This document shows positions 8,888 to 12,727 of a stretch of DNA of 26,085 bases, piece after piece (the first letter of the stretch is position 1; the number at the start of each line of letters is the position of its first letter). The position numbers and the translations under genes are program-made. The stretch covers positions 1-26,085 of IMG/VR virus record IMGVR_UViG_3300025853_000557. One strand, written 5' to 3'. The notes beneath the pieces are model-generated. The model had not been told where the DNA came from, did no database searches, and was given only the letters and a program-made list of their open reading frames with translations. The stretch is from a virus.

Positions 8888-9286
8888 ATGACCCGACCAC
8901 CTTTCCAATATGATAAGCCAGTCTTCGTGCGTAATCCTAGTGGATTGCTGATGAGTGGTAAACGCTATGCTAAAGGTGATCTCGTTCCTTGGAAGGAGCG
9001 GGGTCTCCCGAAAGCTAACATTGAACGTATGTACAATGAGCATCATCTTCACCACAACGAAGAACTGGAAACAACCCTAAAGCCTTCTGTCGGAGATGGT
9101 CTCACTGATATGGATGTAGAACAACTTGCAATCCTTGTTAAGACCATCAACGATAAAGTTAAGGCAAAAACTTCTAACGAAGCTGAGTACGACAGAAAGA
9201 AATGTCGTGTCTCTAAGATCAAAGATAAGCAAATCGGTTTCATTCGCTCTTGGCGGGGGAGACATGGAGACCTAGAGGCAGACTAA
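8888..9286 (+). CDS. Small protein of the head-tail region, function unknown
   Basis: 132 residues. The N-terminal half has FVRNPSGLLMSGKRYAKGDLVPWKERGL, a compact beta-type segment seen in short proteins encoded just after capsid genes. The C-terminal third is strongly basic (RKKCRVSKIKDKQ, then SWRGRHGD). A good AAGGAG site (8875-8880) precedes the ATG. It has no motif I can tie to a function. From its position it may be a head-tail joining or capsid-associated protein. Confidence 0.5.
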   Translation: MTRPPFQYDKPVFVRNPSGLLMSGKRYAKGDLVPWKERGLPKANIERMYNEHHLHHNEELETTLKPSVGDGLTDMDVEQLAILVKTINDKVKAKTSNEAEYDRKKCRVSKIKDKQIGFIRSWRGRHGDLEAD

Positions 9287-10930: not shown

Positions 10931-11908
10931 ATGGCTTTCGCACAAGGCTCTCGTTCTACTCTGTCGTTCAAAGAGGAAGCAACTTTTGGTACGACACCAG
11001 CAGGTAACTTTCAAAACCTGCCTTTCACAACTCACTCACTCAATCTCACCAAAGATCGTGTTGCTGGTACTGACATTCAAGCTGACCGTATGCCTCGCGT
11101 TGACCGTCATGGTAACAGAGTTGTGGGTGGAGACATTGTAGCAGATTTACGTCACGCTGAGTTTGACGTTCTTATGCAATCTGCTCTTATGTCAGATAAT
11201 GACTTCGCTACAGGCTTCACTGCTGGCGATGGATCTACAACTGTAACTAACGCAGCTATCGTAGGTACTACACCTACCTTTCTGTCGATTGAGGATTACT
11301 CAGCAGACGTAGACCAAGCACGTTTGTTCACAGGTTGCGCAGTAAACACAATGGCAGTCTCTATGGCTCCCAACCAAATGGTAACAGCTACCTTTGGTAT
11401 GGTTGGCAAGACAATGACTATTGGCGCTACACAGAAGACACAAGATGCTTCTGCTGGTAATGAACCATTTGATGCTTACTCAGGTGACATCAAACTTGGT
11501 AACAAGGGTACACTTGGTTCAGCATTGACGCTTATCACTGCCCTTGATTTTACTGTCACAAACAACTTTGCTCCAACTCTGGTTATTGGTGAGGATACAC
11601 CATCAGCCCTTGAGTTTGGTACGGTATCTGTTGAAGGTACAGTCTCAGCATACTTTGAGGATGCAACTCTGATCAACCGTTTCTTGAATGAAACAGAATC
11701 AGCACTTGAAGTTTCTGTAGGAGATGGGTCAAACACCCTCACATTCCTATTCCCACGCATCAAGGTAAACTCTGCTGACGTAGGGGTGGACGGTCCGACA
11801 TCACGTATTATCAACATGTCTTTTGTTGGTCTTCGTACTGATGAGGATCTTAGCTCTTCAACAACGAATACAAATACCATTCTTCAAATTACGAAGTCTG
11901 GTGCATAA
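10931..11908 (+). CDS. Major tail tube protein
   Basis: 325 residues. The opening, GSRSTLSFKEEATFGTTPAG, then LPFTTHSLNLTKDRV and RHGNRVVGGDIVADLR, is typical of the Phage_tube_2 group of siphovirus tube subunits. The C-terminal region, beta-rich and Thr/Ser-rich, probably forms an outer domain. It has a good ribosome site (AGGAG, 10919-10923) and codon choice like the capsid gene. The gene is followed by the only sizeable gap in the late operon (82 bases), which carries a structured RNA candidate. Confidence 0.85.
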   Translation: MAFAQGSRSTLSFKEEATFGTTPAGNFQNLPFTTHSLNLTKDRVAGTDIQADRMPRVDRHGNRVVGGDIVADLRHAEFDVLMQSALMSDNDFATGFTAGDGSTTVTNAAIVGTTPTFLSIEDYSADVDQARLFTGCAVNTMAVSMAPNQMVTATFGMVGKTMTIGATQKTQDASAGNEPFDAYSGDIKLGNKGTLGSALTLITALDFTVTNNFAPTLVIGEDTPSALEFGTVSVEGTVSAYFEDATLINRFLNETESALEVSVGDGSNTLTFLFPRIKVNSADVGVDGPTSRIINMSFVGLRTDEDLSSSTTNTNTILQITKSGA

Positions 11909-11912
11909 GAAT

Positions 11913-11971
11913 CCTAGCTAGGATGAGGGGGGTGGTTGTCGGGTGCTGCTCCCCTCACTTTAAAACCCGAC
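11913..11971 (+). promoter_or_regulatory. Intergenic palindrome and candidate H-type RNA pseudoknot
   Basis: The gap after the tube gene starts with the palindrome CCTAGCTAGG (11913-11922). Two 7-base stems then interlock. TGAGGGG (11924-11930) pairs with CCCCTCA (11951-11957), and GTCGGGT (11938-11944) pairs with ACCCGAC (11965-11971). The 5' arm of the second stem lies in the loop of the first and its 3' arm lies beyond, the order of an H-type pseudoknot, with linkers of 7, 6 and 7 bases. The element ends about 20 bases before the chaperone ATG. It may limit transcription or translation past the abundant tube gene. No T-tract follows, so it is not a standard terminator. Confidence 0.5.
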
Positions 11972-11990
11972 TAGCCCGAAAGGAAACCCA

Positions 11991-12389
11991 ATGGACTTGA
12001 AAGACCTGACACCGACAAGTGACACTGTGGATGTAAACATTGTGCATCCTACGACACTAGAACCATTACTGAATGATAATTCAGAACCAATGGTAATTAC
12101 TATGTATGCTCCACATTCTAAGGAGTATAAGGCTGCAGTACATGAGCAGACGAACAAGCGTCTAAAGCAAGCGCAGTCAAAGAAGAAGGTAGATTTAACT
12201 GCTGAAGATATAGAAGACGCCACTCTTGATTTATTTGCCAAGACAACAAAATCTTGGAACATCACATACGATGGTGAAGAGCCAAATTTCTCTGTGAGTA
12301 AAGCAAAAGAGATTTATAGCGAAGTCTTCTGGATTAGAGACCAGATTGACGAAGCGGTGAGTAACTCTTTAAATTTCAAGAAGGCTTGA
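11991..12389 (+). CDS. Tail assembly chaperone, lambda G-like
   Basis: 132 residues, mostly charged and helical, located between tail tube and tape measure genes where lambda has G. Such chaperones coat the tape measure and are absent from the virion. It starts at an ATG with an AAGGAAA site (11980-11986). Its last codons carry a slippery sequence, so a fraction of ribosomes should shift to the -1 frame and continue into the next open frame, giving a 245-residue fusion. The G-like call comes from gene order and the frameshift arrangement rather than from sequence identity. Confidence 0.78.
   Translation: MDLKDLTPTSDTVDVNIVHPTTLEPLLNDNSEPMVITMYAPHSKEYKAAVHEQTNKRLKQAQSKKKVDLTAEDIEDATLDLFAKTTKSWNITYDGEEPNFSVSKAKEIYSEVFWIRDQIDEAVSNSLNFKKA
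12368..12377 (+). other. Programmed -1 frameshift site (two overlapping slippery heptamers)
   Basis: TTTAAATTTC at 12368-12377 reads, in the chaperone frame, as T TTA AAT TTC. Both T_TTA_AAT (12368-12374) and A_AAT_TTC (12371-12377) fit X_XXY_YYZ in the correct phase, ten bases ahead of the zero-frame stop TGA (12387-12389). The following open frame (from 12386) lies in the -1 frame, and no stop occurs between the slip and that frame. A slip at either heptamer gives the same junction (SLN-FQEGLIEE). This is the arrangement of lambda G/GT. Confidence 0.85.
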
Positions 12390-12727
12390 TTGAAGAGCTT
12401 CTCGACTTTGCAGAACATGAGTTCTCCATCAGTAAGCCCGACAAGAACGGGATATCAGAACGTGAACACCTCGAACAAGTGGAAAGGCAGACTGGACGTA
12501 GACCAAAGGGATTGGATGGACCTGATTTTCCCACTTTGTTGTCTCACATCTGGTCTGCCTTTGTTGCATTAAGCAGTGGCAGAACTATGGGTTTCTCTGG
12601 CCCTAACCCGATTACCTACGATCAAATAAAAGCGTGGAAGGAACTTACGAATACACCATTGTCTTCTTGGGAAGTAGAGGCAATAAAACGTGTGGACGTA
12701 ATTTACATGGGTAGTTTTAATGGCTGA
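12386..12727 (+). CDS. Tail assembly chaperone T-like domain, expressed as -1 fusion
   Basis: 113 codons, open in the -1 frame relative to the upstream chaperone. The only possible early start is TTG at 12386, overlapping the upstream TGA. The first ATG comes 67 codons in, so independent translation is unlikely. Residues about 25-65 (QVERQTGRRPKGLDGPDFP, then HIWSAFVALSSGR) and GPNPITYDQIKAWKELT, then SSWEVEAIKRVD resemble small proteins encoded before tape measures. In lambda the T domain of the fusion binds the tube protein while the G part binds the tape measure, and the same split is inferred here. The fusion product would be 245 residues. The end overlaps the tape measure start by eight bases. 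Confidence 0.8.
   Translation: MIEELLDFAEHEFSISKPDKNGISEREHLEQVERQTGRRPKGLDGPDFPTLLSHIWSAFVALSSGRTMGFSGPNPITYDQIKAWKELTNTPLSSWEVEAIKRVDVIYMGSFNG

Follow-up and report, generated by a model that had tools for sequence, protein, structure and literature searches.

A conserved structured RNA with a candidate pseudoknot between the tail tube and tail assembly chaperone genes of roseophage-type phages

The window analysed here (the whole stretch of 26,085 nucleotides of the IMG/VR record IMGVR_UViG_3300025853_000557) carries a tail tube protein gene followed, on the same strand, by the first frame of a tail assembly chaperone. The gap between these two genes is the largest among the structural genes of the window, as judged from open reading frames, in agreement with the first-pass annotation, which had pointed to a sizeable gap in the late operon and proposed a candidate H-type RNA pseudoknot within it. 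Searches with the tube and chaperone proteins retrieved close and distant relatives from IMG/VR, plus Roseobacter phage CRP-6, and the corresponding tube/chaperone gaps were extracted, yielding 104 distinct sequences (marine phage contigs and CRP-6). Covariation was studied in an alignment of 61 relatives, in which four pairs of a first hairpin (P1) and a 12-bp core of a second hairpin (P2) were modelled. The features of interest in the window are the following:

10931–11908, plus strand: tail tube protein gene (Phage_tube_2; Pfam PF18906, E 3.6e-41; phrog_290), upstream of the gap.
11912–11923, plus strand: P1 hairpin UCCU-AGCU-AGGA, directly 3' of the tube stop codon (4/4 pairs changed on both sides and 98.8% of cells paired in the 61 relatives).
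11924–11957, plus strand: P2, a 13-bp hairpin pairing 11924–11936 with 11945–11957 (12/12 modelled pairs changed on both sides, 92.8% paired).
11937–11944, plus strand: P2 loop UGUCGGGU, with the core GUCGGG.
11958–11964, plus strand: linker CUUUAAA between P2 and site A (4–20 nt in relatives, median 9, with a variable sequence).
11965–11971, plus strand: site A, ACCCGAC, complementary to 11938–11944 and putative 3' strand of the pseudoknot helix S2 (a CCCG-type partner lies 3' of P2 in 104/104 relatives, with one-sided changes only).
11974–11979, plus strand: site B, GCCCGA, a second loop-complementary site, adjoining the Shine-Dalgarno.
11979–11984, plus strand: Shine-Dalgarno AAAGGA of the chaperone gene, read from the sequence and aligned across relatives.
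11986–11989, plus strand: ACCC, a remnant of site C with only four complementary bases in the window (most relatives have CYCGAY between the Shine-Dalgarno and the ATG).
11991–12389, plus strand: tail assembly chaperone, first frame, the downstream gene (phrog_313, E 5.8e-7).
8888–8897, plus strand: ATG-ACCCGAC, the start of the post-major-capsid gene, bearing a loop-complementary tag (possible second target).

Both perfect 7-base stems of the first-pass annotation are present, i.e., TGAGGGG (11924–11930) with CCCCTCA (11951–11957) and GTCGGGT (11938–11944) with ACCCGAC (11965–11971), and the element does lie directly 3' of a palindrome (CCTAGCTAGG, 11913–11922) and 19 bases before the chaperone ATG at 11991. 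The interlocking linkers of 7, 6 and 7 nt are also correct as counted, but stem 1 (P2) extends to 13 bp (12–14 bp across relatives), so that the first two linkers are mostly paired, and it is an 8-nt loop closed by P2 that would form the 7-bp helix S2 with ACCCGAC. Taken alone, this geometry is weak evidence, and it is the comparative data that decide: a perfect 7/7 interlocked pair within 70 nt is found three times on the plus strand of the window versus 0.75 times per shuffled window, and shuffling the gap itself 5000 times reproduces such a pair 10 times. Moreover, a plain nested fold gives the region no exceptional stability (z −0.58).

Across the 61 relatives, 93.9% of the cells are paired, versus 79.0% after shuffling and at most 58% in slid registers, while the covariation score reaches 0.518, versus 0.224 for shuffled alignments and at most 0.185 for slid registers. 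In a rough control for relatedness, in which close relatives were compared two by two in 37 disjoint pairs, P2 displays 16 compensatory changes and 17 unpaired cases, whereas slid registers yield 3–5 and 54–74, respectively. Compensatory changes, which the first-pass annotation had suggested looking for in homologous gaps, are thus found in both P1 and P2. Together with the many G-U pairs kept in P2, they argue for a pseudoknot-capable element selected as RNA, as had been supposed, and the G-U pairs speak against a dyad operator at the DNA level. Likewise, P1 has to be regarded as a hairpin rather than as a DNA palindrome, because its loop varies among relatives (AGCU, ACGU, GGCC, GCAA, UUCU). 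Altogether, the gap almost certainly harbours a conserved structured RNA.

The case of the second stem is different: the complementarity expected from the first-pass annotation is kept, but covariation is not observed, both strands being almost invariant. All 104 distinct gaps share the loop core GUCGGG without a single change, and the first CCCG 3' of P2 reads ACCCGAC, ACCCGAT, TCCCGAC or CCCCGAC in 97 of them and ACCCGC, ACCCGT or ACCCGAA in the remaining seven, while the linker from P2 to site A differs in both length and sequence. As changes in one strand are not matched by changes in the other, S2 shows no two-sided change in the 61-relative alignment, and its support comes from the complementarity of two (nearly) invariant 6-mers, not from covariation. 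The linker over stem 1 is at least 7 nt long in 102 of the 104 gaps (automatic call), which suffices to cross a stem of 12–13 bp, as in coronavirus-type pseudoknots. Given this conserved complementarity, S2 very probably forms.

With a covariance model of P1–P2, a single strong copy per record is recovered from 46 phage records and lies at the tube/chaperone junction; pattern scans that ignore the genes return 199 loci, 195 of which are at this junction. The element is thus always found in relatives at the step where it was first noticed. The other four loci have neither P1 nor P2 and are chance matches, whereas weak second matches to the model in two records (G021 and G004) fall in the capsid gap, at a hairpin with a different loop. 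CRP-6, which defines a phage group ubiquitous in the ocean (PMC6918029), is the one isolate found with the element, which is therefore likely to be common in nature. No copy was detected in distant phages sharing the same tube family. In Pseudomonas, Vibrio, Stenotrophomonas, Janthinobacterium and Acinetobacter JeffCo phages of that family, the two genes overlap or abut, and a weak match in Vibrio phage R31B (E 0.037), where they are 10 nt apart, was taken as chance. In the Rhizobium phages P106B and RHph_X2_24, the junction features terminator-like hairpins with T-runs (L636:1208–1295; L637:457–509 and 1250–1290), along with inserted reverse-strand genes in RHph_X2_24. These G+C-rich hairpins occupy the same genomic position and presumably serve the same step-down, but they differ from the present element by their T-runs and have neither the GUCGGG loop nor partner sites. 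It follows that the junction step is handled by different means in different phages, the element being the roseophage-type solution. A prophage search found no tape-measure relative among genome contigs. Contigs L200–L204 come from metagenome-assembled genomes labelled Neomarinimicrobiota, Flavobacteriales and Poseidoniales; they encode a reductase 68–75% identical to that of CRP-6 and probably represent phage sequences assigned to the wrong hosts during binning.

Site A is not the only potential partner of the loop. At least one further CCCGA, CTCGA or CCTGA is present 3' of site A, at the ribosome-binding site (RBS), in 104/104 gaps. Site B, between A and the Shine-Dalgarno and most commonly 5–7 nt 5' of AGGA, occurs in 87/104 (4.4 expected from letter shuffles) and site C, between the Shine-Dalgarno and the ATG, in 75/104 (5.0 expected), counts that are inflated by shared descent, despite the diversity of the sequences and the variability of the rest of the leader. 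Estimated energies of the duplexes with the loop are −11.5 kcal/mol for A, −8.6 for B and −8.7 for C, and site A is the strongest partner, or tied for it, in 99 of the 104 gaps. In the clade of contig L137, site A has decayed and site C is a perfect ACCCGAC. Hence, the earlier idea of a switch holds insofar as alternative pairings are possible, but these would not be two alternative hairpins; instead, two to three rival sites would share one loop.

It is mainly because of these conserved extra partner sites and of their energy ranking that we prefer a translational control. According to this model, the element would act in cis on the mRNA, and the chances are about even that its main output is the translation of the chaperone, set by the partner that the loop selects. 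The gap would allow the tail tube, which is very abundant, and the chaperone, which is scarce, to be translated separately. P1 and P2 would fold immediately 3' of the tube stop codon, as a stable stack stopping the ribosomes that end the tube from entering the chaperone start. The exposed loop GUCGGGU would then either pair with site A, which would complete the H-type pseudoknot and leave the chaperone Shine-Dalgarno free, or engage the weaker copies of A, i.e., B or C, which would block ribosome binding, so that the competition between A and B/C would result in a low and adjustable rate of chaperone translation. We infer that B and C do pair with the loop in the cell, though two observations on the window itself are less favourable: in simple folding, the unpaired probability of the Shine-Dalgarno shows no clear change between states (0.45 vs. 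0.49), and the degenerate site C counts against the competition. Furthermore, the CCCGA tag is also found at genes without an upstream GUCGGG hairpin, an observation that a model acting in cis alone leaves unexplained.

Other readings of the same element can be envisioned. P1–P2, with or without S2, might block 3' exonucleases at the tube message end left by cleavage in the A/U-rich linker, in which case the tube mRNA would outlive the chaperone mRNA and the RBS-proximal CCCGA sites would serve another purpose. Stable tandem hairpins immediately 3' of an abundant message, the A/U-rich linker between P2 and site A and the hairpin of unlike sequence that also lies 3' of the capsid gene in most relatives are all in its favour, but such a role in mRNA stability or processing accounts neither for the invariance of the GUCGGG loop nor for the conservation of its two to three partners at the chaperone RBS, and we consider it rather unlikely. 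P2 might also be a weak terminator or a pause site, possibly modulated by S2, that would reduce transcription past the tube, as suggested by the T-run hairpins of P106B and RHph_X2_24 at the same junction and by the few T that often follow P2. These T are not conserved (mean 3.3, maximum 5 in the 8 nt after P2) and a terminator scan was negative for the element, which makes attenuation improbable. An intrinsic (Rho-independent) terminator was rejected on the same grounds, no T-tract being found directly 3' of the hairpin, as the first-pass annotation had already remarked. A pseudoknot stimulating frameshifting or readthrough was discarded as well: the structure begins 3' of the tube TAA, and the frames are closed or lack conservation (in the window, a UAG stops the zero frame three codons past the tube UAA). 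Finally, Rfam 15 returned no match in the window and only chance-level matches for the element, none above the gathering threshold; among them, a weak match to Alpha_RBS falls on the wrong strand, with a score far under the cut-off.

The last alternative extends beyond the gap. A loop-complementary tag (CCCGA/CTCGAY) is found in 86/86 start contexts of the chaperone, 21/31 distinct contexts of the post-capsid gene and 15/15 contexts of a CRP-6-type SSB-like gene, versus 0/264 contexts of the capsid, four other head-tail genes and the tube, while 2 of 23 tape-measure contexts matched it, farther upstream. At the post-capsid gene, the tag directly follows the ATG in the window group (ATGACCCGAC) and is shifted to a different reading frame in another clade (ATGACACCCGAC), which indicates that the nucleotides, and not the frame of the codons, are kept. 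It does not behave as a generic Roseobacter RBS spacer, since none was found in the spacers of 52 Ruegeria genes, and seven matches (vs. 0 for the control) in the 4.1 Mb genome of Maricaulis imply that it is rare in hosts. In a check for complementarity between the tag and host 16S rRNA, the two records examined yielded no rRNA. A factor acting in trans could recognize the tag at all three gene starts. This factor would be a phage protein or, alternatively, an antisense RNA consisting of the GUCGGG-loop hairpin released from the late transcript by cleavage, and the cis pseudoknot would represent one branch of the system. Yet, with site A next to P2, the loop would be expected to be occupied in cis. 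Moreover, a large clade has no tag at its post-capsid gene, several records, among them one closely related to the window, have none at their SSB-like gene, and no free small RNA is known. While a wider, non-universal regulon is possible, we hold its control by such a factor to be quite improbable. More speculative still, and in our opinion a long shot, is a double role of the GUCGGG hairpin in cis control of the chaperone and as the source of a trans-acting antisense RNA. If true, a hairpin cut from an abundant late transcript would silence CCCGA/CTCGAY-tagged starts phage-wide, i.e., the post-capsid connector gene and, in many relatives, an early SSB gene, thereby tying the ratios of virion parts and the shut-off of early genes to the level of the late transcript.

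The SSB-like gene has the tag only, without a GUCGGG hairpin. In CRP-6 and its close relatives (the 15 distinct contexts above), the tag lies in the RBS of gp18 (L159:8094–8645), annotated as hypothetical, which bears an acidic tail (EDDELF) and ends in F. Its predicted structure is of moderate confidence (mean pLDDT 65), and the best matches of the model are phage SSBs (DUF2815 proteins, T7 gp2.5 and the Enc34 SSB; Z 7.5–8.3), the next unrelated match having a Z of 5.0. Based on this fold and on its acidic tail, gp18 is very likely a single-stranded DNA-binding protein of the T7 gp2.5/DUF2815 type. The promoter and RBS of gp18 are strongly conserved (CGAAAGGAACTCGACATG in relatives). An apparent tag at CRP-6 gp22 was dismissed, as it falls in the coding end of gp21.

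Unequal output from neighbouring genes of a late operon is usually ascribed to terminators, to overlapping genes or to the strength of start sites. The element described here, an RNA with strong covariation, stands at exactly such a step, in a phage group abundant in the ocean; it is absent from Rfam 15, its design (one loop, several sites) lends itself to simple compensatory mutations, and its sequence tag hints at a coordinated translational regulon. Our literature search found no report of this element. Pseudoknot operators are known from ribosomal-protein operons such as the alpha operon, which similarly rely on a pseudoknot near the RBS and on alternative folds to control translation, but the tail element is intergenic in a phage late operon and implies no ribosomal-protein ligand. 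Hairpins of the Rhodobacter puf-operon type also separate abundantly from weakly expressed cistrons; they stabilize the upstream mRNA, and we know of none that forms a pseudoknot with RBS copies. The closest concept is the pseudoknot operator of T4 gene 32. In T4 and T2, the gene 32 message is translationally controlled, with an H-type pseudoknot upstream of the SSB gene that is bound by gp32, and, as in the tail element, an A/U-rich stretch joins the pseudoknot to the RBS (PMC3014915, in which it is compared with the E. coli rpsO pseudoknot operator). The two nevertheless differ in gene and architecture (an SSB gene there, a tube/chaperone gap and a stem 1 of 12–14 bp here) and in the tandem partner sites, copies running into the RBS only in the tail element. 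An SSB operator of the gene 32 type was thus rejected, given that the element is upstream of a tail chaperone.

Three additional observations were made around these genes. In most relatives, the region 3' of the major capsid gene has another stable hairpin, unlike the present one, whose loop is often CUUAAG or of the UUCG type (L156:6948–7005, L104, L109, L122, L126 and others, as well as the capsid gaps of G001–G045), and these relatives have a CCCGA near the next start, whereas the window group and the L137 group are without this hairpin. In L039 (1822–2500), an insert of about 600 nt with an HNH-endonuclease-like ORF separates P2 from the chaperone. Hairpin P2 is retained with its loop upstream of the insert, the nearby site A is lost and the leader is partly duplicated downstream, which amounts to a natural experiment on the element. 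Finally, TTTAAAT occurs in the zero frame (T TTA AAT) at positions 12368–12374 of the window, near the end of the first chaperone frame, and a second chaperone frame (12386–12727) lies in −1 relative to the first, suggesting that this site is likely to direct a programmed −1 frameshift of the usual tail-chaperone type.
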